This document shows, in pieces, positions 2,851 to 25,684 of a DNA stretch of 26,334 nucleotides. Source of the DNA: a virus; IMG/VR virus record IMGVR_UViG_3300025030_000378, positions 1 to 26,334 of that record; one strand, given 5' to 3'. The notes beneath the pieces were generated by a model. That model ran no database searches, had not been told where the DNA came from, and was given only the letters and a program-made list of their open reading frames with translations. How positions within the stretch are numbered: the first letter of the stretch is position 1; each line of letters starts with the position of its first letter. Made by a program: the position numbers and the translations under genes.

Positions 2851-3183
2851 TCAATCGCCTCCGTCGTCGCAGCCGCCGAAACTGTCCGGGTCCACGCCGC
2901 CCGGATCGGCCCGGCGCAGGTTCTCCGCGTACCGCGCGCCCCGGTGGCCCGCCTCGCGTCCAGCCGCGTGCGCCGCCTTGACCACCTTCTCGGCCTCGTC
3001 CAGCGCCACGACCGCAACGACGGTGTGGGGGCCGCAGCGGTACCCGCCGGGGCCGTCGATCTTCGCGGCGACTTCGATGGCGTCCGCCTTCCGCGTGTGC
3101 AGCGCCCCCAGGCGTGCGCCCGACGCGAACAGGCCGTGTGCCTTACCGTTCTTGCACCGCAGGACGTAGCCGAGGATGTTCAC
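2851..3183 (-). CDS. Hypothetical protein, 110 aa
   Basis: The ATG overlaps the RNA-ligase gene's TGA by 4 bp. The first half (MNILGYVLRCKNGKAHG, then RLGALHTRKADAIEVAAKI) reads as a compact alpha/beta fold. The second half is helical, with an acidic, Gly-rich tail (GGCDDGGD). It directly follows the RNA ligase and may be co-translated with it, but nothing in the sequence links the functions. Confidence 0.75.
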   Translation of the reverse strand: MNILGYVLRCKNGKAHGLFASGARLGALHTRKADAIEVAAKIDGPGGYRCGPHTVVAVVALDEAEKVVKAAHAAGREAGHRGARYAENLRRADPGGVDPDSFGGCDDGGD

Positions 3184-4055
3184 TTGGACTCCGTCAACGC
3201 GGCTCGCAGCCGTTCCTGAAACATTTTCGCGGCCCGTGACCCCACGGCCCGCCGCACGTCGTTCGTGACCTCGATCTCGCCGGATGCCTCGCGCGCCACG
3301 TCCTCGACCATCGCCGTGATCACCTGCGGCGTGGACTGGATCGCCGTCACGTCCGTCCCCGCCGCCGCGAGCGCATCAAGGACGTGTGCGAGGCGCATCG
3401 GCGTGACCCACTCGTCGGCCACGGCGTTCGCGGCGGTCAAGACAGGCAGGCGTTCCGACGAAACCTTCGGCTGGTGCGTGCGCTCCGCGAAGGCGTCCGA
3501 CTTGTGCTTGGTGATGATGCGGTCGCCGTTGCTCTTGGTCAGTTCGATCAAAGGCCGAATGACGATCCCCTCGCGCGGGCGCGGTGCGGTGATTCCGCAC
3601 TTGACCGACTGCTCGGACAGACGGTCGCGTTCGGCGTCGAGCGTCGGCACGTCGGCCACAACTTTCCGCCACGGCACGAAGTCAAAGCCCAACCCGGCCG
3701 CCACGTCAGCGGCATCGGGAACGGCGAGCCACGTCGCATCGATGCGAATCTCAAACGCGACGAACCGTAGGGTCGGCCCGTAGGTGTCCTTCATCCCCTG
3801 CATCTTGCCACCGTACGCCTCGCCGTAGACGGTCACGACCGGATGGCTGAGCGCGGTGAACTTCGCGGCGAGTGCGGGCACGTCGAACAGGGCCGCGAAC
3901 GATGCGGCGGACGTACCCCCGGCGAACAGGGCCACGGTGTCGTCCTTCCACGCGACATGGGCCGACGAACCATGAATCTTCTCAAGCGCGTAGCATTCGC
4001 GGAACATGAGGATGTCCTGCGCGCGGTAGAGGTTTTCAATATGCATGTAACTCAT
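3180..4055 (-). CDS. RNA ligase, Rnl2-like nucleotidyltransferase, 291 aa
   Basis: The protein shows the ordered motifs of covalent nucleotidyltransferases of the Rnl2/RNA-ligase type: motif I EKIHGSS with the predicted adenylated Lys at residue 26, motif III VYGEAYGGK (77-84), motif IIIa FVAFEIRI (98-105), motif IV REGIVIRP (161-168) and motif V ITKHKSDAF (181-189). Such enzymes seal RNA nicks through an enzyme-AMP intermediate, and in phages they often repair RNA cut by host defences. The C-terminal 100 residues are helical, like the extra domain of Rnl2. ATG at 4055 overlaps the upstream TGA; an upstream in-frame start at 4088 is less likely. No polynucleotide kinase is seen beside it. Confidence 0.88.
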   Translation of the reverse strand: MSYMHIENLYRAQDILMFRECYALEKIHGSSAHVAWKDDTVALFAGGTSAASFAALFDVPALAAKFTALSHPVVTVYGEAYGGKMQGMKDTYGPTLRFVAFEIRIDATWLAVPDAADVAAGLGFDFVPWRKVVADVPTLDAERDRLSEQSVKCGITAPRPREGIVIRPLIELTKSNGDRIITKHKSDAFAERTHQPKVSSERLPVLTAANAVADEWVTPMRLAHVLDALAAAGTDVTAIQSTPQVITAMVEDVAREASGEIEVTNDVRRAVGSRAAKMFQERLRAALTESK

Positions 4056-4276
4056 TGTGCCGACCTCCGTTCGATGTCCACGATGCACGCCACGATCAGC
4101 GCGAGTGCGCCCCTATCACGGTTGTGGCCGACCAGCGCACGGCGCAACGGCGACCCCGGCGGCCCGCTCATGCGCCCGAGCCACCAGAGCATCCAGTCGC
4201 CGCGCTCGCACGCGGCCCACGCGGCATCGGTGCAGGCACCGAGGTCCGCGAGTACGCCCGTCCAGTGCTTACCCAC
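4052..4276 (-). CDS. Small CxRGDWMLW-motif phage protein, 74 aa
   Basis: GTG at 4276 has GGAG seven bases upstream. The central AWAACERGDWMLWWLGR (about residues 19-35) matches a motif I recall in small uncharacterised phage and bacterial proteins (C-x-RGDW-x-LW). An N-terminal helix with Cys 15 precedes it, and a C-terminal helix (LALIVACIVDIE) follows it. No catalytic role is known to me. Confidence 0.75.
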   Translation of the reverse strand: MGKHWTGVLADLGACTDAAWAACERGDWMLWWLGRMSGPPGSPLRRALVGHNRDRGALALIVACIVDIERRSAQ

Positions 4277-13109: not shown

Positions 13110-15134
13110 CTACCCGATCTCATCGACCACCCCAGCAGTCACTCGCAGTACGCGCGCGTCGGGGAAGTGCGCGCGCACGGCGGGCGAGTGCGAGATGACG
13201 ACAACGTGGCGCGCGGCAGACAACTCGCACAGCAAGTCCGACGCGCGCTCGCAGCCCTCATCGTCCAAGATGTCGAACACCTCGTCGAACGACGACCACG
13301 CCCACCGAGGGCCGCCACGCGCCGCCGCTGTCTCCGCGAGGCCAAGCATCACGGCAAGGTCCACGCGCCGGCGCTCGCCTTCGCTCGCGTCGTCGTAGTT
13401 CCCGGTCTTGCCGACGCCCGAAGTCGTCAGCCCCAACTCGGTCGCCGTCGTGCCTTTCTTGAGCGCGCGTTCGGTCGTTAGCGTGATCGTCGCGCCGGGT
13501 TCGAGCCGCTGAACACACGTCGTCGCAGCGTCCGACGCAGACGCAAGGTACGCAGCCATGACACGCACGCGCGCGCCACGAACGCCGAGAACGGTCGCGG
13601 CAGCCGAAAGCACCGCGAGGCGCGCTTCGTGTGCAGCCTGCCTAGCTACCAAGGCGCCGATCTCCGCTTCGGCGGCGACAAGCGCAGTCTTCGCCGCCTC
13701 GTGTCCGGTCTGCGCCGCCACAAGCCGCGCAGCCGTGTCGCGCGCGCGCTGCTCGCGTTCGGCCACGCGCGACTCGTTGACCTCGCGCGCGCTGCGCGCA
13801 GCAGCAACAGCAGCGTTTGCCGCTGCCGCTCGCGCGCTCGCGGTCGTGAGCGCGTCTTGGCAACCTTCGACCAACGCTGCGTGCTGTTGTGCGAATCGCT
13901 GCGCAGCGTTCGTAGCATCTGCGTGTGCGGTTGCCGCCGCCTTGAACTCTGCCCTCGCCACAGCGCGTGCTTGTGTTAGGCGTTCTTCTTCCGCGCGCTC
14001 TGCTGCGAGCGCAGTGCGCGCAGCGTCGAGCGTCTCCGTCAACTTCGCAAGGTCGGCCTCGTAGTGCGCAGCGACCTTGTCCGCTGTGTCCGTCTCAACC
14101 GTGCGCAGGCACGTTGGGCAAGGAACACCGACCATGCTCGCCGCCCGTGTGACAACGGACTTGATGCCGTCCGACTCGCGGGTCAGCTGCGCGACGCGCG
14201 CACTCAACGCTGTGACGCGCGCAACGCACGCGACAAGCGTCTCAGCCGCCGACTCGCTCACGGGCCCCGCGTCGTCTCGCGTGCGAAGCGCGGCGGTCAA
14301 CGCGGCCGCGTGCAGGGCGCGCTCGGCGCGCTCGTTCGCCTTCGCTGCGGCGAGCGCGCGCTCACAGGTGCTCGCCCGGTTGCGCGCGGCGCTCGCCAGC
14401 GCCTCTGCACCAGCCACGTCAACCTGCTGCGCGGCGCTCGCCTCGGCCTGCGCAAGCGCGTCCTCGGCGTCAGCCGCGTCCTTGTGCGCGCTCTCGGCAG
14501 TCGCGCGCGCGGTGACGAGGGTGCGCGCAGCGGCGTTTCGCTCCGCCGTTGCGACAGCGGTGGCGTTCAACGCGACCGCGACCTCCGCGTTCTCCGCGTC
14601 AACCTGAGCGCGCACGCGTGTCGACGCACGGTCGAACGGGGCCGACACACCGAACAAGTCGTCCACGAGCACCTCGCGGTGCGCGTTGTCCGCCTGCGAG
14701 TACGCGAGCATCGCGCCCTTCGTGAACAGCACGGTGGCGACAAACGACTCGAACGTGCCGATCGCAGCGGTCAGCTTGTCCTGTGTCGCAGTCATGGTCG
14801 GGCCCATGAACTCGGCGACCGGGCCGCTCGCGTCATCGACTGTCAATTCGACTTTCGCGCTCTTGCCTTTCGCCTTGCAGCGCGTGACGCGCAGATCGCG
14901 GCCGTCAACGTCAAGTGCTACCGACACGCGCACGTCGGCTGTGGCGCCGCGAAGCGGGTCGCCGCCGCGCGCGCTCTTGCCCCACAAGCACCACGCCGGG
15001 GCCTCGACGACGAGCGCGCTCTTGCCTTGGCCGTTCCTGCCGGTCACGAGTGTCAGCCCGGTCGCGTCGAACGCGACGTTGGCGCTGCCGAACGACAGGA
15101 AGTTGTCGGCGGCGATGCTGCGCAGTTGAATCAC
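13110..15134 (-). CDS. sbcC: SbcC/Rad50-like ATPase (T4 gp46 type), 674 aa
   Basis: The N-terminus (IQLRSIAADNFLSFG) and Walker A GRNGQGKS at 32-39 fit the SMC-like ATPase of the SbcCD/gp46-47 nuclease. Long Ala-rich coiled coils flank a zinc-hook CPTC at residues 339-342. The C-terminal lobe has the ABC signature (YDDASEGERRR) and Walker B with catalytic Glu (SSFDEVFDIL, near 615), then an ISHS switch His. The protein is shorter than bacterial SbcC, in the phage gp46 size range. GTG at 15134 overlaps the SbcD stop (GTGA); frames further out are open but cover SbcD. It should work with the SbcD-like nuclease to process DNA ends for recombination. Confidence 0.92.
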   Translation of the reverse strand: MIQLRSIAADNFLSFGSANVAFDATGLTLVTGRNGQGKSALVVEAPAWCLWGKSARGGDPLRGATADVRVSVALDVDGRDLRVTRCKAKGKSAKVELTVDDASGPVAEFMGPTMTATQDKLTAAIGTFESFVATVLFTKGAMLAYSQADNAHREVLVDDLFGVSAPFDRASTRVRAQVDAENAEVAVALNATAVATAERNAAARTLVTARATAESAHKDAADAEDALAQAEASAAQQVDVAGAEALASAARNRASTCERALAAAKANERAERALHAAALTAALRTRDDAGPVSESAAETLVACVARVTALSARVAQLTRESDGIKSVVTRAASMVGVPCPTCLRTVETDTADKVAAHYEADLAKLTETLDAARTALAAERAEEERLTQARAVARAEFKAAATAHADATNAAQRFAQQHAALVEGCQDALTTASARAAAANAAVAAARSAREVNESRVAEREQRARDTAARLVAAQTGHEAAKTALVAAEAEIGALVARQAAHEARLAVLSAAATVLGVRGARVRVMAAYLASASDAATTCVQRLEPGATITLTTERALKKGTTATELGLTTSGVGKTGNYDDASEGERRRVDLAVMLGLAETAAARGGPRWAWSSFDEVFDILDDEGCERASDLLCELSAARHVVVISHSPAVRAHFPDARVLRVTAGVVDEIG

Positions 15135-16225
15135 GCTGTCCACCCCATCGCTTCTGCCACTGTGCGGCGCACGTCGTCGCGCGACACGTTCTCTAGCGGC
15201 ATCGCGTTCACGTACTCCGCGACGACCTCCTGCGGCGTTTGCGCCTGCTGCGCGTTCCGCGCGCGCTGCTCGCCTTCGTCTCGCACAACGTCCGCGACGT
15301 ACTCGACCCAGACCCGGTTCTCGACGCCCCACTTGCGCGCGTACTCCGCGCGCGCGGCGGGGCCACGAAGGCGCACGCGATACGCACAGCCGTCCTCCAG
15401 CACACCCATCGCGCTGCGCAGATCGCTCTCGCCGTCCCACGCGCCGTCCATGAACCGCGGGCCGGGCAACCGGCGCACGTCGATCTTCGTTGTCGTGCCG
15501 ACACGGCGCGCAACAACGAGACGCCCGAACGCGCCGATGTCGTTGAACCCGCGCGGCCCGAGCGCGCCGATCTGCATCACACGCCCGTTGTCGTGCGTGC
15601 GCGGCACGTGACCGTGGCCGTGCAGCATCAACGCCACGTCGAACTCGCGCACGAGCGCGTCCGCGACCTCGTGGGGCACGTAGTCAGGCTTCGCGTCCCA
15701 CTTGACAAACCCGCCAAGGCCGTAGTGCGCGACAACGATAGTCGGCGCTGTGCGCTTCGCTGTCTCCGTGAGCACTCCGGCGACGATACTCGACGCGTTC
15801 TCACCACGCTGCGGCGGGCGAAATGGGATGCACACAACAGCGAACCCACCAAGCACGAGCGTCGTGGGGTATTCTACCACTGTCACCCCGACCTCGCGCA
15901 ACGCGCCAAGCGCGTTCGCACCATCTGCGAGGCCAAAGATGTCGTGATTGCCCGCGAGCACAACGGCCTGCCGCCCCGCCTTACGCCACTCGTTGAACGT
16001 GGAGCACGCGGCCTCGACAAGCGGCGCTTCCGGGCGCGACGACTGGAACAGGTCGCCGGCGACCACCACCACGTCGCACTTCTCCACGAGCGCAACACAC
16101 AGCGCGCTATCGAGCGCGCGGGCCGTTTCCTCTGCGCGCGACGACAATCCACGCCACGCGTTCGGTGTGGCGAGGGCGTTGTAGTTGCCGAGGTGCGAAT
16201 CGGCGATGAAGCCCACGCTGCTCAC
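15131..16225 (-). CDS. sbcD: SbcD/Mre11-like nuclease (T4 gp47 type), 364 aa
   Basis: The five metallophosphatase motifs are present: DSHLG (Asp 9, His 11), GDLF (Asp 58), GNHD (Asn 93, His 94), AHYG (His 167) and HGHGH (202-206), which bind two metal ions. A C-terminal capping and ATPase-binding region follows. This is the nuclease half of the SbcCD/Mre11-Rad50 complex. GTG at 16225 overlaps the upstream TGA and has GGAG five bases before it; GTG at 16231 is in frame but badly placed. Overlap with the ATPase gene suggests coupled translation in proper ratio. Confidence 0.92.
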   Translation of the reverse strand: MSSVGFIADSHLGNYNALATPNAWRGLSSRAEETARALDSALCVALVEKCDVVVVAGDLFQSSRPEAPLVEAACSTFNEWRKAGRQAVVLAGNHDIFGLADGANALGALREVGVTVVEYPTTLVLGGFAVVCIPFRPPQRGENASSIVAGVLTETAKRTAPTIVVAHYGLGGFVKWDAKPDYVPHEVADALVREFDVALMLHGHGHVPRTHDNGRVMQIGALGPRGFNDIGAFGRLVVARRVGTTTKIDVRRLPGPRFMDGAWDGESDLRSAMGVLEDGCAYRVRLRGPAARAEYARKWGVENRVWVEYVADVVRDEGEQRARNAQQAQTPQEVVAEYVNAMPLENVSRDDVRRTVAEAMGWTA

Positions 16226-16506
16226 AGCCACTCCGTGTCGCGCAACAACGCGCGGATCTCGTCGGAGTTGTTTCGCACGTACGCTGCGGCACCGTGTTCG
16301 CGTGTCGCCTTTCGAGCGAAGTCCACCAAGCGCACGAACGCGCTGACAGGCACGACCGCGATCCGGTCGCCAACCGCGAACCCAGCGTCCTTGACGTGAA
16401 CGCCGATATGGTCGTGGTGCCCCTGCCCCTTCGGGCCGCGCAGCGACAACCGCTCTCCCGGGCGCATAGTGCTGTCAACGACCACGCCTTCCGCGACGTG
16501 CTTCAC
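16222..16506 (-). CDS. Hypothetical protein, 94 aa
   Basis: GTG at 16506 gives a GTGA overlap. The N-terminal half is beta-rich with a His/Gly turn (RPGERLSLRGPKGQGHHDHI); the middle (GDRIAVVPVSAFVRLVDFAR) and C-terminus (NNSDEIRALLRDTEWL) are strand then helix. It lies between the recombinase and SbcD genes, so a recombination or regulatory accessory role is possible, but no motif shows it. Confidence 0.72.
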   Translation of the reverse strand: MKHVAEGVVVDSTMRPGERLSLRGPKGQGHHDHIGVHVKDAGFAVGDRIAVVPVSAFVRLVDFARKATREHGAAAYVRNNSDEIRALLRDTEWL

Positions 16507-16775
16507 GGTGCCTCCTGATCTGGCGAGCCCATCACGAAGCCGAAGTCATGCAGCGCCTCGAACAGACGACGCCGCACGGTTTCGGCTTCCTTCCCGTTCC
16601 GGCGGTACGCGCACGCGACGGCAGTGTTCACGAGCCGCTGGTAGTCCTGCTGTGTGACAAGCACGACAGTCTCGCCCGGCTCAAACCGCGCGTCGGCGAG
16701 CGCGTCGGAAATGCCGCGCACCCGCACGCCGGGAGCGAACGGACACTTCTCCACCGTCAGCATCGCTCGTCTCAC
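16503..16775 (-). CDS. Hypothetical protein, 90 aa
   Basis: GTG at 16775 overlaps the RecA-like gene's TGA and has GGAGGA six bases upstream; the ATG at 16763 lacks a well-spaced site. Beta-rich N-terminus (VEKCPFAPGVRVRGISDALA, then ETVVLVTQQDY) and a helical C-terminus (EAETVRRRLFEALHDFGFVM). Soluble. Not recognised; directly downstream of the recombinase. Confidence 0.72.
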   Translation of the reverse strand: MRRAMLTVEKCPFAPGVRVRGISDALADARFEPGETVVLVTQQDYQRLVNTAVACAYRRNGKEAETVRRRLFEALHDFGFVMGSPDQEAP

Positions 16776-17848
16776 CGCACGTCCTCCGGCACCACGGCGG
16801 GTGCGTTGAACTTGTTGGGCCACGACGCCGCGCGCAGTTGCGTCAGCACCTCGGGCGTCGGCGCCGATGTGATGCACGTCAGCCCCGTCGCCTTGACCGT
16901 CACGAGGCCGCGCGACACGGTGCACAGCCCGTGCTGCCGCGCGTGGTCGATGAGCGTCGCCGCCTCATCGATGATCGGCGCGTCGCCGTCGAACCGCAAC
17001 AGCACGTCGCCCCGTCGGAACGGCGCGGCGCAGCGGTTCTTGGCGATGCGGATGTGCGTGGAGTGCCCAACCGAGAACTCCTCGCCCGTCTCCTTCGTCT
17101 GTGCGCCACGCGTCATCTGGATTCGCAGATGCGCGTGGTACTTCACGGCCTGCCCACCCGGTGTCGTGGTCTTCTCGCCAAACATGACGCCGGGCTTGTC
17201 GCGCAGTTGGTTGACGATCACGAGCGCCACACGCTTCTTCGCCACTTCGCGCGTGATGGCGCGGCAGAACGTGGACATCACGCGCGCGCGGTAGCCCATG
17301 CCGTCACCGCGCTTCTTTCGCTTCTCGTCCTCGCTGTCGCCCTCCGAGTCGTCAAACACGCCGTCAAGCTCCTTCTTCGTCGGCGTGGCAGCGAGCGAAT
17401 CCCACCCGATGAGCAACGGGATGTCGGGCGCCACATCCGACGACCGCGCGATGGCGAGGCCGATCTGCGCAACCACGTCCTCGATGGTCTCGCCTTGCCC
17501 AAGCACCACGTCGTCGGGCGCGCCACCGAGCGCGCTGATACGCCCCGGCTCGAACGCCGTCTCCGTGTCCCACAAACACGCAAGCCCGCCTTCGGCCTGA
17601 ACGCTCGCGACGAGATGCGCGAGCAAGGTGCTCTTGCCCGCGCTGACCTCGCCGCTGATCTCCGTGAGACGGCCGATCGGCACGCCACCGATGCCGATGA
17701 GGTCGTGGTCGATGAGCGAAATGCCCGTCGGCACGACCTCTCGCACGGTCGAGAGGCCGCCGTCCGCAAGGGTGACGGCGGCCTCCTTTCCGTACTGCTT
17801 GCGGATGCCGTCGAGGACGGACTTGATGGCCTTGCGAACGTCGTTCAC
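16772..17848 (-). CDS. recA: RecA/UvsX-family recombinase, 358 aa
   Basis: The core RecA fold is clear: Walker A GEVSAGKST at 66-74, the catalytic-Glu region DTETAFE (94-100), Walker B LLIGWDS at 145-151, VIVNQLRDKPG (210-220) and loop L2 TTTPGGQAVKYHAHLRI (228-243). Between Walker B and L2 there is an insertion in the L1 area, rich in Asp, Glu and Lys (about 166-182), not present in E. coli RecA. It polymerises on single-stranded DNA and catalyses strand exchange, here probably for recombination-dependent replication. GTG at 17848 overlaps the SSB stop, with GGAGG seven bases before it. Frame open further upstream is only the shadow of the SSB gene. Confidence 0.93.
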   Translation of the reverse strand: MNDVRKAIKSVLDGIRKQYGKEAAVTLADGGLSTVREVVPTGISLIDHDLIGIGGVPIGRLTEISGEVSAGKSTLLAHLVASVQAEGGLACLWDTETAFEPGRISALGGAPDDVVLGQGETIEDVVAQIGLAIARSSDVAPDIPLLIGWDSLAATPTKKELDGVFDDSEGDSEDEKRKKRGDGMGYRARVMSTFCRAITREVAKKRVALVIVNQLRDKPGVMFGEKTTTPGGQAVKYHAHLRIQMTRGAQTKETGEEFSVGHSTHIRIAKNRCAAPFRRGDVLLRFDGDAPIIDEAATLIDHARQHGLCTVSRGLVTVKATGLTCITSAPTPEVLTQLRAASWPNKFNAPAVVPEDVR

Positions 17849-18810
17849 TTGCCGCCTCCGCTCGTGTCGCCGCGCAGCGCCGCACGCAGCGCCTGCACCT
17901 GCGCGGCCGGGGCGTTCGGCCCCATGCTGGCGAGGCACGCCTTCACGCACGCCGACTTGTGACGGCACGCCATCTCGCCGCGCTTCGCGTAGGGCGACGG
18001 CTTGCCCGTCGCGCCATCGCACGTCGGATCGCCCGACGAGTACGTCTCGAAACACGGCGGCGTGGCCGCCTCGCTCGTGTCCGGCGGCACGTCCCCTTCG
18101 TCCTGCGACGACGCGGGCGGCGGAAGCAGTCGCACCGTATCCGGCGGAAGCAAGGCGCGGATCTCGTCCGACTCCTTGAGCACGATGAGGTTGTCCAGGT
18201 TGTGCAGCCCGTCGAGCCACGCAGGCGTGCTGACCGGCGACGGCTGCTGCTTGCGCGTGACACGGTACCGCGTGTCCGTCTTGGTCGTGCCCGTGCGGTC
18301 CACGATGACGTTGAACCCGGTCTCGGGATCCGTGAAATCCACGCCCTCGTCCGGGTCCGCGATCATCGGCAGCACCTGCTCGTCGAACGTGCGGGCGGGG
18401 ACACCCCACACCTGCACGCCCTTGGAGGCACGCTGCGGGTCCGTCAGGTCCACGGCGTTGACGAGGACGCGCCGGCCGACGTTCATCGCCTTCGCCAGCG
18501 CCTCGTCGGTTTTGTCGCCCGTGGCGAACAACGCCTTCACGATGTCGCAGATCGGGCACGACTGCTGCGCCTCCTTGCGGGGACACGTCACGCCGATCGT
18601 CTTGGTCGGGTCGTCCTTGTTCGCGATGTGGTGCGACCACTGCTCGCGGTAGAACGTCGGCACGCCGTCGGCCCACGGAGGCATGACGCGGAGGATGGTG
18701 CGCCCGACAGGCACCTTCAACCACGGGACGGCGTTCGCCCGGTTCTGCATATCTTCCTGCGAGCGGCGGTAACGCTCGCGGATCTCCTGCATGTCCACCT
18801 TCTGCGCCAT
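17845..18810 (-). CDS. gp32-like zinc ssDNA-binding protein, 321 aa
   Basis: The zinc site matches T4 gp32 in position and spacing: His 60 or 61, Cys 76, Cys 85 and Cys 88 (CPICD), close to the H64/C77/C87/C90 set known in T4. The surrounding sequence (WLKVPVGRTILRVMPPW; FYREQWSHH) is the expected OB-fold core. After an acidic linker (QDEGDVPPD) the C-terminus adds a second Cys group (PPCFETYSSGDPTC, then CRHKSACVKAC), reminiscent of C-terminal CF...C...C motifs in other phage gp32-like proteins. ATG at 18810 has AAGGAG nine bases upstream. Neighbours encode the mediator and recombinase it would cooperate with. Confidence 0.85.
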   Translation of the reverse strand: MAQKVDMQEIRERYRRSQEDMQNRANAVPWLKVPVGRTILRVMPPWADGVPTFYREQWSHHIANKDDPTKTIGVTCPRKEAQQSCPICDIVKALFATGDKTDEALAKAMNVGRRVLVNAVDLTDPQRASKGVQVWGVPARTFDEQVLPMIADPDEGVDFTDPETGFNVIVDRTGTTKTDTRYRVTRKQQPSPVSTPAWLDGLHNLDNLIVLKESDEIRALLPPDTVRLLPPPASSQDEGDVPPDTSEAATPPCFETYSSGDPTCDGATGKPSPYAKRGEMACRHKSACVKACLASMGPNAPAAQVQALRAALRGDTSGGGK

Positions 18811-19408: not shown

Positions 19409-21970
19409 TCACGTAGCGGTGAGCACAAACCCGTGCAACGAATCAGCCTTGGCGTACTTCTTGAGCGTGCCCCACGACGCGCCCACCTTCGCGTCAACAG
19501 CAAGCGGCACGCCCGCGCTGTTCCACGACAACATCGCTGCGCAGACCTCGCGCGAAACGCTCTCCGCGTGCTCGGGCCGCGCGGAGAACAAGATGTCGTC
19601 ATGGACTTCGAGCACCATACGCGCGGGCAGTCCCTCGTCGACCAGTTGCGCGATAGCGATAACCGAGGCCATCTTGAAGTCGCTCGCCGTGCCCTGAACC
19701 GGACTGTTGACGGCCTGGTTCATGGCGCCAGACTGCCGCTGCCTGTCGCCGCTGTCGGCGTCGGGCAGGTAACGAATGCGAAACGGCGCGCCGTCCCACC
19801 ACGTTCGGATGTGCCCTTCCTCGCGCGCCTGTCGCTGCAACTCCTCGCGGTACGCCGCGGCGCGCGGGTAGCGCGTGAGCACCGCGTCGTAGATGCGCTG
19901 CGCGGCCTTGTCGCTGATGCCGAGGTCGAGCGCGAGCGTGTGGACCGTCTTGCCGTACCAGACGCCAAAGTTCACGACCTTCGCGCCGTCGCGCTGCACG
20001 TTCGTCACGTCCTTGACCGCGCAGTTGTGAACGAGCGCAGCGACCTCCGCGTGCAAGTCGCGCCCTTCGCGGAACACAGCAAGCATGTCTGGATCCTGCG
20101 ACAGCAGCGCAGCCACACGCAGTTCGATCTGCGCGTAGTCGAACGACAACAGCACCTCGCCGGGCTCAGGAGCAAAGCACTCCTTGACCATGCGCGCTTC
20201 TTCCGTGCGCGCACGCGGGATGTTCTGCAAGTTCGGATCTTCACTCGACGTCCGCCCTGCTGCCGTCCACAGCCCAAACCGCGTGTGAACGCGTCCGTCG
20301 TTGCCGATGTGCTTGAGGATGCCGTTGTTGGCCTTGCGACCGCGCCGCGTCTCGTCGGACCCTGCGTAGCCGCTCTCCAAACGGCGCAGCCGTTTGTATT
20401 CGAGCAAGTGCTTGACGACCGCATGTTTCCCGGCAAGCGCAGCAAGCGCCTCCTTGTCTACTGACCGCCCTTCCGGCGCTTCGAGTTTCAGCCGGTCGTA
20501 GAGCAACGCGCGCAACTGGTCGTTGCTGTCGAGATTGAAGTCGTCGCCCTTCTCGCTGATGAACTGCTTGATCTGTGCGAACGCGCACACGCGACTTTCG
20601 GCCTCCTCGATGCGCTTGCGCAGCAGCATCCGAAGCGCGCCGACCGCGACGCGATTGACACAGACGCCGTTCCGCTCCATCTGAGCGTAGGCGAACACCG
20701 CCGGGCGCAACATTCGATTCCACACGTTGTCGGCGATGGCGTCCGGCGCCGCGTGCGCCCACAGGCGGTATGTCGAAACCGCGTCACCACCGTTGTAGCG
20801 CAACAACTTCCGCGGGTCGGCGCGACCATAGTGCTTGCCGACGTGCGCGGCCTTGCGGTGCGTGGCAAACGCCTCCTTGTGCCCGCCCATGCCGACGTGC
20901 CACTGCGCCGCTTCGAGACCGTAAGGCGCGTCTGTGTCGCGCAGATACCGCTCGGCCTGCGTGTCCCCTGCCGCACCGCGCAACGGCATTCCAAGCGCGA
21001 CGTGACCAACCTGTGTGTCGAACTTGATGTCGTGCGCGACCTTGCCCACGGCGGGGTCTGCAAACACCGCGTGCAGCGTTGGTGTGCGCAGCGCGCGACC
21101 GACAAGCACCAGCGCGCGGTCGTCGCTGCTACTCATACCGAGGCACAGCGGCGTGAAGTTCGCGCTCCACGGGTTGAGCGGGTTCTCACCGTCGCACTCG
21201 TAGTCAAACCCAATCACGCCTGCGCGGTCGGTGCGGCCGCGCACGCGCTGTGCCATCGCAGCGACCTCGCGTTCGGCCTCGACCGGATCTTCGACCACGC
21301 ACAACGCGAAGTCGCCACCGAGCACCTTCACCTCGGGGATGCGCGAGGCGTCGTCGAGCAGCCACGTCATGGTTTGCCGCGACCGCAGCGCCGCGGCGAC
21401 ATGATGCACAAAATAGACAGGAAGCCCGTCAGGTCTGCGATGCGCAAACGTCGGACCGTGAACGGCGCGCACACTTTGCGGCGAACCAGTCAGCGCGCGA
21501 AACGCAACAGCGCCCATCGCCACGATGACACGCGGGCGCACGCGGGCGATCTCGTCCTCCAGGTATCCGCGACACGCCTCCACCGCCTCGGGCGGGATGT
21601 CACGCGCGCGGCCCGGATAGCAGCGCACGGCGTTGGTGTAGTACTGCGGACCGCCCAACCGCTCGCCGATCGCGCGCAGCAGGTCGCCCGACGCGCTCGC
21701 GTACACCCGCCCTGCGTTGTCCTCGTCGGGGCCGGGCCCTTCGCCAACCCACAACACGCCCCCCGGCGCACCCTCACCGGGCAGACAACGACTCGTGGCG
21801 TGCCGGCAAAGCGCGCAGCGTTCGCACCGCGCGTTACGCGTGAGCGGTACGACAACGGGCAGCAGCGCAGGCTGCCCGACAACGAACTCGCCGACGGCGC
21901 CGGAGGCGTCGAACGGCGGCTCGCCGGCAACCGCGCTCACACCAAACAAACTGCGCTGACCGGATCCCAC
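19409..21970 (-). CDS. Uracil-DNA-glycosylase domain fused to DNA polymerase I, 853 aa
   Basis: Residues 45-205 form a family-4-type uracil-DNA glycosylase: Cys 49 and 52, Cys 117 and 133 (C-x15-C) fit its 4Fe-4S site; motif GEGPGPDED is at 76-84; the usual HPA motif is replaced by HHVAAALR (189-196). A DEDDy proofreading exonuclease follows (Asp 256/Glu 258, Asp 318, Tyr 392-x3-Asp 396). The polymerase part has motif A DYAQIELRV (Asp 611), motif B RDGAKVVNFGVWYG (Lys 664, Phe 668, Tyr 672) and motif C EVHDDI (His 790, Asp 791). All catalytic residues of both polymerase and exonuclease are present; no 5'-nuclease domain. GTG at 21970 has GGGAGG seven bases upstream; GTG at 21940 gives a GTGA overlap. 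Confidence 0.93.
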   Translation of the reverse strand: MGSGQRSLFGVSAVAGEPPFDASGAVGEFVVGQPALLPVVVPLTRNARCERCALCRHATSRCLPGEGAPGGVLWVGEGPGPDEDNAGRVYASASGDLLRAIGERLGGPQYYTNAVRCYPGRARDIPPEAVEACRGYLEDEIARVRPRVIVAMGAVAFRALTGSPQSVRAVHGPTFAHRRPDGLPVYFVHHVAAALRSRQTMTWLLDDASRIPEVKVLGGDFALCVVEDPVEAEREVAAMAQRVRGRTDRAGVIGFDYECDGENPLNPWSANFTPLCLGMSSSDDRALVLVGRALRTPTLHAVFADPAVGKVAHDIKFDTQVGHVALGMPLRGAAGDTQAERYLRDTDAPYGLEAAQWHVGMGGHKEAFATHRKAAHVGKHYGRADPRKLLRYNGGDAVSTYRLWAHAAPDAIADNVWNRMLRPAVFAYAQMERNGVCVNRVAVGALRMLLRKRIEEAESRVCAFAQIKQFISEKGDDFNLDSNDQLRALLYDRLKLEAPEGRSVDKEALAALAGKHAVVKHLLEYKRLRRLESGYAGSDETRRGRKANNGILKHIGNDGRVHTRFGLWTAAGRTSSEDPNLQNIPRARTEEARMVKECFAPEPGEVLLSFDYAQIELRVAALLSQDPDMLAVFREGRDLHAEVAALVHNCAVKDVTNVQRDGAKVVNFGVWYGKTVHTLALDLGISDKAAQRIYDAVLTRYPRAAAYREELQRQAREEGHIRTWWDGAPFRIRYLPDADSGDRQRQSGAMNQAVNSPVQGTASDFKMASVIAIAQLVDEGLPARMVLEVHDDILFSARPEHAESVSREVCAAMLSWNSAGVPLAVDAKVGASWGTLKKYAKADSLHGFVLTAT

Positions 21971-22665
21971 CCGTGCGCCTCCCACAGCCACAAACCCCAC
22001 GCGGGGCAGAACCGGTACGCCCGCACGCCTGCGAGCAGCGCGAACACCGAGCGGCCGAACTCGCCGTAGAGCGCGTGCATTCCGGTCGATTCGATCTGCA
22101 CGCCGCGGCGAAACGAGTCGAAGTCCCTGCCGCCCGCCGCCGCGCAGTAGTCAAGCGGGTGCGTGTGTGCCAACTCGCGCAACGCATACAGCGGCTCGTG
22201 TAGCACGAGCAACGCCGGCGGACGGGGAACGACGAACGCGCCCAACGTCTCAGGCCGGTCGTTGTCGAGCCGTGCGTCCACGACAACCGTCTGCTCGGGC
22301 GCCGCCCACGAAGCCGCAGCGAACGCGGCAACGTTGACCGCGCTTAGCCACACGCCGCCGCGCGCGGTGACACGGACCTCCTGCGGCGACGCAGCGACGA
22401 CAAGCGACGAACCCCGCACGCTGAACGGGAACTCGAACCGCGAGGACAGGCGCAGCGCGAACTCGAACTCCGCGAGCGGAACCGCGATGTCGCGCGGCCC
22501 GCCCGACGTCCACTCGGCGACGCGCAGCGTGGTTGCGTCAAACGTGTCGCCGATCAGCTCATCCAACGCGTCGGCGGCGCCGAAAACGGGGACACCGTTC
22601 TCGACGCTCGCCGACGCGTGCGTGCCGTCGTCGCCTACGGTGACGTCGATAGCTTCGCTGCGCAT
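21937..22665 (-). CDS. Unknown protein in replication operon, 242 aa
   Basis: Not recognised. The first 130 residues alternate short strands and turns (FEFALRLSSRFEFPFSVRG, then SLVVAASPQEVRVTARGG), and the C-terminal part has a HEPLYALRELAHTHPLDYC segment and a Trp-rich end (CPAWGLWLWEAHGWDPV). No membrane helix, no nucleotide-binding motif. ATG at 22665 has only a weak ribosome site; the stop overlaps the polymerase GTG. Its place just before the polymerase makes a replisome accessory role plausible, but this is inference. Confidence 0.75.
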   Translation of the reverse strand: MRSEAIDVTVGDDGTHASASVENGVPVFGAADALDELIGDTFDATTLRVAEWTSGGPRDIAVPLAEFEFALRLSSRFEFPFSVRGSSLVVAASPQEVRVTARGGVWLSAVNVAAFAAASWAAPEQTVVVDARLDNDRPETLGAFVVPRPPALLVLHEPLYALRELAHTHPLDYCAAAGGRDFDSFRRGVQIESTGMHALYGEFGRSVFALLAGVRAYRFCPAWGLWLWEAHGWDPVSAVCLV

Positions 22666-22667
22666 CG

Positions 22668-23111
22668 TCAGGCCGCCGGGCTGGCAATGGTGAAGGCGCG
22701 CACGATGCGCTCGTCCGTCAGGTTCGTGATGGACGAAAGGATCGGCACGCCGCGCTTCTTGAGGTCGCCGACGAGCGCGACCACCTTCGCCTCGGCGTCC
22801 TTGCGCGGCAGGCCGTCGGTCAACTTGCGCGCCACGATCTCCTGCATGACCTCACGCAGCGAGGTCGCGCGCTGGAAGGCCGCGATGTCGCTGAGCGGGT
22901 CGGCGTCCGACGACGCCGGGGGCGGCGGGGCGCTCGCCACCGGCTGAGGCTGCTCGACGACAGGCCGCGGCTTCGCCTTCGGCGTGGCGTCCACGACCAC
23001 GGCGGGGTCGCCGCCGCGCTGCGCCTTGTCCGCGACAACCTGCGCGACCGCCGTCAGGATGTGCAGCGCGTCCTCCGCGCTGTCGAACTCGCACTCCACA
23101 CGCATCTTCAT
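22668..23111 (-). CDS. Unknown protein with Pro-rich linker, 147 aa
   Basis: A strand-helix N-terminal region (MKMRVECEFDSAEDALHILT) is joined by a Pro-rich linker (about residues 44-67) to a helical C-terminal domain (EVMQEIVARKLTDGLPRKDA, then LVGDLKKRGVPILS). ATG at 23111 follows a strong GGAGGA. The repeated two-part motif lies 35 bases upstream, so this gene may open a transcription unit that includes the polymerase. Function unknown; two domains with a flexible linker suggest a protein-protein adaptor. Confidence 0.78.
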   Translation of the reverse strand: MKMRVECEFDSAEDALHILTAVAQVVADKAQRGGDPAVVVDATPKAKPRPVVEQPQPVASAPPPPASSDADPLSDIAAFQRATSLREVMQEIVARKLTDGLPRKDAEAKVVALVGDLKKRGVPILSSITNLTDERIVRAFTIASPAA

Positions 23112-23123
23112 CAGTGTCCTCCA

Positions 23124-23990
23124 TTAGAAGGGAACGTCGTCGTCCCACGTATTCTGCGGAACGACCGGAACTTCGTTCGAGAACCCGGCCAGCACGGCCT
23201 CCTCGATGGCCTCCTCTGTCGAATCACCAAGGTCGCCGACGCCGGGTGCGACAGGCACGTACCGCGCGTCTTTGCCAAGAAGGCGCAGCGTCATGGCGAG
23301 CGCCTCGCCCTCGGCACGCGCGTCACGGTCGAGCATCACGGCCACACGCGGCGCGCGGCACGACGCGAGCAACGCCACTTGTTCGTCGCTGTACGCCTTG
23401 CCGTAGCCGCCGACTGCGGGTGACACGCGCACCGCGCTCACCACGTCGAGCACCCCCTCGGCGGCGATGATGTACGCCGCGCCATCACGCAGCGCGCGTT
23501 CGTTGAACAAGTGCTGTTTGCCCGAGAACCCAGGGTTGAACAGGTACTTCGGGTCCACGCCGGGATGGACGGTGCGCGAAACGATGCCACCTTCCGCGAG
23601 CATCACCAGTCGCCCCGCGTACCTGCCACGCGTACACGCGCCCAGTTGCAGTTTCGCCGCCCAGTCGTGCGTGAACAGCAGTCGCCGCTGCGCGTACTCT
23701 ACGAACACGCGCAGCGAGAGCGAGCGCGTATCGGGTGTCAGCGGGGTGTAGCCTCCCGGTGGCCAGTCGAGTTGCGGCGGCGGGCCATCCTCCACGAACG
23801 ACCGCTTCGACGTCCCCGCCGCCGGGTCCACGCCGAGCGCGCGCGCGAGCGTGAACCGTCCGGCGCCGCTCGCGTCGCAGCGGTGGCACTTCCACAGGTG
23901 GCTCTCAACGTGGAACGACAGCGACTTGTGTCGGTCAGGCGAGCCCTTGCGCTCTGAGCAGAACGGACAAGTGAAACGGCGGTTGAGCAT
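23124..23990 (-). CDS. DnaG-type DNA primase, 288 aa
   Basis: The N-terminus holds a zinc-binding domain with CPFC (Cys 8 and 11) and CHRC (Cys 35 and 38). The TOPRIM catalytic core is at 173-225: AAEGVLDVV with Glu 178, and VMLDRDA with Asp 221 and Asp 223 binding metal. It ends in an acidic tail (TWDDDVPF). It makes RNA primers for lagging-strand synthesis, with the helicase encoded just upstream. It is shorter than bacterial DnaG and has no helicase-binding C-terminal domain, like stand-alone phage primases. ATG at 23990 is chosen over 24071, which overlaps a small gene. Confidence 0.88.
   Translation of the reverse strand: MLNRRFTCPFCSERKGSPDRHKSLSFHVESHLWKCHRCDASGAGRFTLARALGVDPAAGTSKRSFVEDGPPPQLDWPPGGYTPLTPDTRSLSLRVFVEYAQRRLLFTHDWAAKLQLGACTRGRYAGRLVMLAEGGIVSRTVHPGVDPKYLFNPGFSGKQHLFNERALRDGAAYIIAAEGVLDVVSAVRVSPAVGGYGKAYSDEQVALLASCRAPRVAVMLDRDARAEGEALAMTLRLLGKDARYVPVAPGVGDLGDSTEEAIEEAVLAGFSNEVPVVPQNTWDDDVPF
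23146..23175 (-). promoter_or_regulatory. Two-part repeated motif, copy 3 (candidate phage promoter)
   Basis: CACGTATTCTGCG then, after nine bases, GAACTTCG on the plus strand, within the last codons of the primase gene and 35 bases upstream of the start at 23111. Copies 1 and 3 share 14 identical bases across the first block. Confidence 0.45.
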
Positions 23991-23992
23991 TG

Positions 23993-24124
23993 CTAACCCT
24001 GTCGCACGATGCGGCCGAAGGTGACCCGTGGCAACCGCCGTGCAGGATAGAACCAGAGCGTCAGCGACCACTTGCCGAACGACACGCCCCAGTAGCGCAA
24101 GTTGGCCATGTAGCCGCGGTGCAT
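23993..24124 (-). CDS. Very small protein, 43 aa
   Basis: ATG at 24124 shares one base with the upstream TGA, and the TAG at 23995-23993 ends two bases before the primase start, so this ORF fills the gap exactly. It begins MHRGYMANLRYWGVSFGKWS and continues LTLWFYPARRLPRVTF, basic and aromatic-rich. Residues 11-27 are amphipathic rather than a clear membrane helix. Too short for family recognition; exact fit in the operon is the main support. Confidence 0.6.
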   Translation of the reverse strand: MHRGYMANLRYWGVSFGKWSLTLWFYPARRLPRVTFGRIVRQG

Positions 24125-24340: not shown

Positions 24341-25684
24341 TCACTTCCTCGACGTCTGCGCGACGGGCAAGATGTCTGCGTCCACGAGCCGCCCACGCCG
24401 GTAGTCTGTATCGAGCGGCCCGACCTCGATGCCCGCCGTCGTGTACCGCGCCTTCGCGATGTAGAAACGGATCTTGTCGTCGGCCTGTTCCTCGGGCGTG
24501 CGGCACAGCGCGATCACGAGGTCGGCAACGTGGCACTTCTTGAACGACTCCGCGATGTCCACCATTGAAACAACGCGCTTCGTGAGCGCCTCGCGCCGCG
24601 CCTGTGAAGCCGTCCACACCGGCACGTTCCACTCGGCCGCGAGTGCGGACAACTCGGCGTACACGCCACCAAGTTCCTCGTAGCGGTTATCGTGACGCGC
24701 GCTGTTGGCCGACGGCGACGGCCCGAGGATGTCGCCGTAGTCCACGATCACGAGCGTCGGCTCAAGCGACAGCGACGACCGCGCCTCGCGCAGGTGCGCG
24801 CGAATGTCCGAAGCCGTTGTCAGCACGGCGGGGAACTTCTTGCAGATCATTGTCCCGTCGCCGAGCCGCCCGGAGATGCGCTTGTGCGCCTCATCTGGCT
24901 GCATCCGCAACGAGTCGATGGCCATACCTGCGAGGTTCGCGTCGATCCGGTCGTTGATGGTCGCATCCGAGACTTCGAGCGTGTAGTACGCGACGACGCC
25001 GCCGAGCACGATCTCGGCCGCGGCGAACTGTGCGAGCGCCATCGTTTTTCCAGATCCTGTCGCCCCAAGCACCACACCCAACTCGCCTGCTGCGAGTCCG
25101 CCGGCGATCACGCGGTCGAGGTCAGGGATGCCTGTGGGGTGCCGGTACACCTGATCTGCTGGGTTTTTCCGCATCTTCGTCCGCTTCGCGAGTGTCAGCG
25201 CGTAGTCGCTGCCGAGGTCCACGTCGAGCACCTTGCCCACGGCGTCCGCGCGCACCACTTCATTTACTGCTGCGTCAACATCGCCGCGTCCGTAGTGCTT
25301 GATCGCTTCGTCGAGCGCGCCGCGCACCGCAACACGCCGCGCCTCCTGCGCTAGCGTGTGCAGCACGTCCTCCGGATCCGGCTGCGACAGGTCGCGCAGG
25401 TCGTCGAGCGCCACGCGACACGCCTCGAACTCCTCCCACGTCGCTTTACCGGCATCCACGAGCAACCGCGTCTCCTGTGTCAGTTCAACAGGCAGCGGGC
25501 CATGCCCTGTGCGTTTGATGTACGCGCACGCGCAAGAGGCGAGGGTCGAAAGCGTCTTGTCCTCGATGCGCTCTGCGTCGAGGTACGCAGCGAGACGCGG
25601 CGCGTAAGCGGGGTCCGCCACCAACAACCCCACAACCGCGCGCGTGAACTCAACAGTGAACGGATACGTCTCAGTCTTCCGCAC
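24341..25684 (-). CDS. DnaB-type replicative DNA helicase, 447 aa
   Basis: The C-terminal RecA-like helicase core is clear: Walker A GATGSGKT at 207-214, YYTLEVSD (233-240), Walker B LVIVDYGDIL at 311-320, the WTASQARRE motif with Gln 361, and a FYIAKARYTTAG segment near 408-419 that fits the arginine-finger region of DnaB. Residues 1-110 form a helical N-terminal domain, smaller and more divergent than that of DnaB. It unwinds the fork in a hexameric ring. GTG at 25684 has GGAGG four bases upstream and overlaps the preceding gene by 14 bp. No separate helicase loader is recognised. Confidence 0.9.
   Translation of the reverse strand: MRKTETYPFTVEFTRAVVGLLVADPAYAPRLAAYLDAERIEDKTLSTLASCACAYIKRTGHGPLPVELTQETRLLVDAGKATWEEFEACRVALDDLRDLSQPDPEDVLHTLAQEARRVAVRGALDEAIKHYGRGDVDAAVNEVVRADAVGKVLDVDLGSDYALTLAKRTKMRKNPADQVYRHPTGIPDLDRVIAGGLAAGELGVVLGATGSGKTMALAQFAAAEIVLGGVVAYYTLEVSDATINDRIDANLAGMAIDSLRMQPDEAHKRISGRLGDGTMICKKFPAVLTTASDIRAHLREARSSLSLEPTLVIVDYGDILGPSPSANSARHDNRYEELGGVYAELSALAAEWNVPVWTASQARREALTKRVVSMVDIAESFKKCHVADLVIALCRTPEEQADDKIRFYIAKARYTTAGIEVGPLDTDYRRGRLVDADILPVAQTSRK

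Follow-up and report, generated by a model that had tools for sequence, protein, structure and literature searches.

A phage family A DNA polymerase with a family-4-like uracil-DNA glycosylase domain, in a clade that keeps the iron-sulphur cysteines and often lacks the catalytic histidine

Phages SPO1 (gp31), PaBG and phiLo already provide examples of a uracil-DNA glycosylase (UDG) domain fused to a family A DNA polymerase (PolA); the novelty lies in how the clade of the present fusion has evolved. The DNA polymerase I of Pseudomonas phage PaBG possesses an N-terminal UDG domain, modelled on the Thermus UDG 1UI0, that its authors link to accurate replication (PMC7412058). The polymerase of Thermus phage phiLo is identical to PDB 9QHS across the solved chain, and the UDG domain is part of this structure, whose title is “phiLo family-A DNA polymerase with modified template”. 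A literature search returned no papers on the phiLo structure, nor on UDG-PolA fusions beyond PaBG. SPO1 gp31 (L190:22242-25901) shows the same domain order and a Pfam UDG match of 2.9e-22. A reading of the present fusion made from sequence only had pointed to a similar domain on SPO1-type polymerases; the domain is indeed found there, but with none of the four Fe-S cysteines, QENPF as motif 1 and a Ser in place of Asn80 (pocket residues are numbered as in Thermus UDGa throughout).

The yardstick for such domains is Thermus UDGa, a family 4 enzyme whose uracil pocket is lined by Glu41, Gly42, Glu47, Phe54, Asn80 and His155 (PMC5387724). The H155S mutation lowers k2 by more than three orders of magnitude, E41Q lowers k2/Km by three orders and E47A by two, changes of Asn80 cost over 40-fold and N89A yields a k2 about 6-fold lower, while the F54Y enzyme is still largely active (PMC5387724). 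Asn80 and Glu47 ensure recognition of uracil and block thymine (PMC5387724).

The window analysed here is the whole 26,334-nucleotide stretch of IMG/VR record IMGVR_UViG_3300025030_000378, which is classed as viral and may be a fragment. On its minus strand, positions 19409-21970 encode, from a GTG start and in a single frame, a UDG domain followed by a DEDDy exonuclease and an entire family A polymerase, the order also seen within one chain in PaBG and phiLo. The open reading frame spans 22000-19409 and counts 863 codons from its first GTG. The start chosen by the sequence-only reading, GTG 21970 (853 amino acids), has a GGGAGG located 7 nt upstream, while an alternative in-frame GTG at 21940 (843 amino acids) overlaps the TGA stop of the upstream gene, forming GTGA. 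A plus-strand reading of the same interval was rejected, being an unrelated frame that contains a stop. Three Pfam domains, UDG (E 1e-16, residues 82-209), DNA_pol_A_exo1 (5e-6, residues 241-415) and DNA_pol_A (2.5e-91, residues 478-844), all exceed their curated cut-offs, so the fusion is no chance reading. PHROG 17 (phage DNA polymerase) spans residues 133-852, the full-length model reaches a pLDDT of 88.0 and a pTM of 0.88, and the fusion is the sole UDG match of the record. It therefore joins a UDG-superfamily, family-4-like fold to a proofreading PolA, as the sequence-only reading had proposed. The UDG-fold domain occupies the N-terminus, the position of the 5' nuclease in bacterial Pol I, and the fusion is most likely the replicative DNA polymerase of the phage: family A, proofreading and devoid of 5' nuclease.

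The genomic context is that of a phage replication operon, since the same-strand (minus) neighbours comprise genes for a DnaB-like replicative helicase (24341-25684), a DNA primase (23124-24071; PHROG 47, 2.9e-18), a gp32-like single-strand DNA binding protein (SSB, 17845-18810), a RecA/UvsX recombinase (16772-17830), the SbcD and SbcC subunits (13110-16231) and a PD-(D/E)XK nuclease. The helicase gene runs in the operon direction, as does the fusion. Two ORFs of 242 and 147 amino acids located between the primase and the polymerase (21937-23111, minus strand) have no family match in Pfam or PHROGs. Long plus-strand ORFs tested between positions 1 and 11480 have no Pfam or PHROGs match either, and the only recognisable gene in the left half of the window encodes an RNA ligase (3180-4088, minus strand).

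To place the fusion among its relatives, a clade of 37 UDG-polymerase fusions, among them the window fusion and L036, the relative nearest to it, was collected with the polymerase peptides VGMGGHK and DPNLQNI, a search blind to UDG motifs. The scan was seeded by the window and L036, the latter having been met first in a UDG-motif scan and then again here. Clade members are distant from the window fusion (at most about 39% identity), and full-length peptide patterns retrieved from viral and bacterial collections only a small number of closest relatives, none of which reaches 40% identity; with L019 and L011 as seeds, scans added no relatives. An IMG/VR scan with a UDG-domain alignment yielded 80 loci, many of them polymerase-fused. 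Annotated relatives include phages Brevundimonas MaInes, Serratia Opt-155, Pseudomonas PMBT14, Yersinia P744 and Xanthomonas phiXF1. Two sets serve for comparison, 78 other fusions and 37 unfused viral UDGs, found mostly through patterns of motif 1 and of the Asn80 region.

The exonuclease (20756-21280) and polymerase (19469-20569) domains were both delineated by Pfam. The D-x-E, D and Y-x3-D elements of the former and motifs A, B and C of the latter are all present, and their residues are invariant in 37/37 clade members, the exceptions being the Tyr of motif B (34/37) and the final residue of motif C. Among the invariant positions (853-residue numbering) are D256, E258, D318, Y392 and D396 of the exonuclease and D611, E616, R660, K664, F668, H790 and D791 of the polymerase; the catalytic carboxylates of both domains are thus unchanged throughout the clade. 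Residues 219-837 of the model match Pol I large fragments with Z scores up to 36.9, the value obtained with Bst Pol I. Such Pol I entries fill the Foldseek ranking of the full-length model, which informs on the polymerase and leaves the UDG-polymerase interface outside its reach.

The UDG-fold domain (21326-21838, residues about 55-225 of the 863-codon frame, from Pfam and the model) was also modelled alone with AlphaFold2, with 33 clade sequences in the input, giving a pLDDT of 84.6 and a pTM of 0.82. Its top structural matches are all family 4 UDGs or UdgX, with Z scores of 21-23 over 167-175 residues (Foldseek, VIA-align 2). The Foldseek E value against 1UI0 is 3e-13, and the Sulfolobus tokodaii family 4 UDG 4ZBX superimposes with a Z score of 22.8 and 2.1 Å over 173 residues. 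The domain carries the cysteines for a putative 4Fe-4S cluster, with the C-x2-C and C-x15-C spacings of family 4: C59 (21824-21826) and C62 (21815-21817), each a Cys in 36/37 clade members, the remaining row being gapped, then C127 (21620-21622) and C143 (21572-21574), both in 37/37 (863-residue numbering). Structure prediction and alignment of the fusions, two of the checks proposed with the initial sequence-only assignment, agree with it on both the UDG fold and the cluster ligands. An additional conserved cysteine, C72 (21785-21787), lies outside the usual family 4 set; it is present in 34/37 clade members, in 47/78 other fusions and in 7/37 unfused UDGs.

The uracil pocket of the window copy is mostly intact. 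Motif 1, GEGPGPDED (21719-21745, from residue 86), follows the family 4 pattern GE(A/G)PG with Glu47 and supplies the equivalents of Glu41, Gly42 and Glu47; the uracil-recognising Asn80 (21632-21634) is retained, as is His155. Three positions are substituted: Phe54, the pocket aromatic, by Tyr (21701-21703), Asn89, which coordinates water, by Ala (21605-21607, from the phmmer alignment to 1UI0), and Pro156 by Val. The latter change belongs to motif 2, HHVAAALR (21383-21406), where family 4 enzymes display HPA or HPS. Alignment of VHHVAAALR with TYHPAAAL and TFHPAAALR identifies the second His (21401-21403) as catalytic, which excludes HHV as a catalytic triplet with HPA lost. The alteration of HPA noticed from the sequence is consequently real but milder than it seemed, the Pro having become Val and the His having stayed. 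Among the aligned UDG-domain rows that were compared, His followed by Val at this place is found in the window only. Judged against Thermus UDGa alone, the domain of the window would be expected to be a weakened, possibly live glycosylase, and with most of the pocket retained it may excise slowly.

The known enzymes differ from the window domain in several respects. The family 4 UDGs of Thermus thermophilus (UDGa), Thermotoga (TM0511) and Sulfolobus tokodaii share its fold (Z 21.3-22.8), Fe-S cysteines, motif 1, Asn80 and catalytic His, but stand alone and possess HPA and Asn89, as opposed to HVA and Ala in a polymerase-fused domain. UdgX shares the fold (Z up to 22) and the Fe-S cysteines; membership of that family was rejected, as its KRRIH loop and GEQPG are absent from the window and from all 152 viral UDG domains examined. 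As compared to PaBG and phiLo, the window fusion belongs to a separate VGMGGHK clade with widespread loss of the catalytic His and an added conserved Cys, and it has an HVA of its own.

In this clade, conservation of the cluster ligands and of the excision chemistry comes apart. All four Fe-S cysteines are present in 36/37 members, the remaining row being gapped there, and rank 1-4 in conservation among the 196 alignment columns, whereas His155 is found in 10/37 and ranks 132. It is replaced by Asn, Asp, Ser, Pro, Gly, Ala, Trp and others. These replacements directly precede a kept Pro in most rows, which makes misalignment unlikely, motif 2 being anchored by the adjacent Pro156 (31/37) and by a downstream ALRN. 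Asn80 is retained in 18/37 members and replaced in 19/37 by Tyr, His, Phe, Ser, Thr or Ala, many of these also lacking His155; Glu41 is retained in 15/37. Glu41, Asn80 and His155 occur together in five of the 37, window included, and 26 members combine the four cysteines with the absence of His155. The domain is near full length throughout. Elsewhere, His155 is present in 73/78 other fusions and 36/37 unfused viral UDGs; the motif patterns used to find most of these inflate Glu41 and Asn80 there and, His155 lying outside the patterns, possibly inflate His155 indirectly. The contrast stands nevertheless, as other fusions found via their polymerase have His155 in 14/18 cases.

In a quick IQ-TREE phylogeny built from the exonuclease-polymerase part of 75 rows, the window clade forms one group (SH-aLRT 96), with L148 falling inside. 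Its sisters L146 and L149 retain His155, and the window and L117 form a pair close to the base. Across the whole tree, the His155 state has changed at least 12 times, a count that is soft given the quick tree method and the long branches. The many losses could also mean that a repair function no longer needed was given up independently in several lines, which then went different ways. The UDG domain stays under constraint after His155 has gone, judging from the sequences: L132 and L134, which both have Asp at this position, yield a dN/dS of 0.15 over the domain, a value resting on this one close pair, the others being too distant for firm values.

The neighbouring genes also set the clade apart. 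The order helicase-primase-UDG/Pol-SSB-RecA-SbcD-SbcC is common to its members where the contig allows. A dCMP deaminase gene lies nearby in 1/37 clade members against 31/76 other fusions, and a thymidylate synthase gene in 0/37 against 26/76; in the window, a 26 kb record that may be a fragment, genes for thymidylate synthase, dCMP deaminase, dUTPase or HMase-like proteins were not found. This would agree with uracil surveillance having become dispensable in phages that do not push dUMP, but is only suggestive, since one clade is set against the rest and the contrast is confounded with phylogeny. The idea that pocket loss tracks neighbours of the hydroxymethyl-dU type proved weak: six of the 16 other fusions with an HMase-like gene nearby have lost Asn80 (L011, L012, L013, L015, L033 and L034) and ten have retained it.

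Several other fusions deserve mention. In phages STP12, Opt-155, PMBT14 and P744 (L011, L012, L013 and L015), Asn80 is changed to Pro and Phe54 to Gly while the Fe-S cysteines and the His are kept, and the fusions adjoin thymidylate-synthase-like, dUTPase or NTPase, kinase and dCMP deaminase genes; the altered pocket thus occurs in phages that may be of the hydroxymethyl-dU type. A second, unrelated polymerase family has acquired the same partner: in Nickievirus ZY21 and two IMG/VR contigs (L023:1130-4522, L101:2232-5522 and L104:1-3309), DNA polymerase III alpha carries a UDG domain as a C-terminal fusion, with an intact pocket in L101 and L104 and a degenerate one in ZY21. At L002:4780-7600 and L005:5926-8780, the UDG with an upstream part and the polymerase are encoded by two successive ORFs. 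The UDG-polymerase ORFs of L053, L090, L110, L128 and L141 are about 1150-1280 amino acids long instead of the usual 800-950, possibly due to inteins, insertions or an upstream open frame. Finally, L150 and L151 are two consecutive UDG-polymerase ORFs on one contig.

As to function, the first reading had allowed for removal, sensing or mere binding of uracil by the domain. The clade, with its catalytic His missing in 27/37 members and its cysteines in place, favours a role without excision, and we lean towards a domain kept for a DNA-binding, tethering or structural job that would aid the polymerase on DNA. The clade-wide role is probably non-catalytic, because the cluster ligands and the fold are kept while the chemistry is not. 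Selection on the whole lineage would then act on something other than excision activity. The simplest candidate role is to keep DNA bound at the polymerase, in the manner of vaccinia D4. D4 resembles the window fusion only by a works-like analogy, in that a UDG fold assists a viral polymerase and does not need its glycosylase activity to do so; it is a family 1 UDG without Fe-S cluster, a separate polypeptide and the partner of a family B polymerase, and the two systems are not homologous. PMC10253040 presents D4 as a processivity factor for the viral polymerase; it refers to De Silva and Moss 2003, a paper whose title gives the protein a role in DNA synthesis independent of glycosylase activity. 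What is proposed for the clade need not hold for the window, since its members are so distant. In the window copy, most pocket residues are kept and the Phe54Tyr change is tolerated in Thermus UDGa, which speaks against a non-catalytic role there; having Glu41, Asn80 and His155, this copy probably still binds uracil and may also remove it, at a lower rate. A more specific version, which we put forward tentatively, is that the clade has recast an Fe-S uracil glycosylase as a built-in, non-catalytic part of the replicase, be it a clamp-like tether or an Fe-S-dependent sensor, having shed the repair chemistry time and again but at no point the ligands of the cluster.

A rather unlikely but serious alternative is an active glycosylase coupled to replication, which would remove uracil from the template or from fresh DNA and leave the gap to be filled by the polymerase or other repair enzymes. 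The window does possess the pocket residues of largest effect in Thermus UDGa, the pocket is conserved in the other UDG-PolA fusions, polymerase-found ones included, many of these adjoin the dCMP deaminase and thymidylate synthase genes, which make or use dUMP, and the fusion to Pol III alpha shows that UDGs have joined polymerases in other phages too. Against this stand the clade members without catalytic His and, in the window, the lack of Asn89 and Pro156 equivalents. Furthermore, cutting a single-stranded template at the fork would leave an abasic block, which argues against routine cutting ahead of synthesis.

A uracil sensor, which would bind template uracil uncut and stall the polymerase, like the pocket of archaeal family B polymerases, appears improbable. 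Uracil binding could outlive catalysis, and Asn80 and Glu47 are both retained in the window; the loss of Asn80 in 19/37 relatives nevertheless indicates that what the clade conserves is not uracil recognition. Least probable is a vestigial domain, a once-active UDG decaying after selection was lost, as the repeated loss of catalytic residues might suggest, for it is contradicted by the four cysteines of 36/37 members, the near-full-length domain and the dN/dS below 1 between relatives.

UDG-polymerase fusions invite an explanation by repair of uracil at the fork. The evolutionary pattern described here points away from simple repair in the lineage of the window, and the split between kept cysteines and lost excision residues makes another explanation testable, namely that the UDG domain has a structural or DNA-tethering role for the polymerase. 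The clade supplies natural “dead” and “live” versions of one domain for comparison, and its pattern bears on the role of 4Fe-4S clusters in replicative polymerases. If true, a non-catalytic service to the polymerase would constitute a prokaryotic-virus parallel to the poxvirus processivity factor D4, within one polypeptide.
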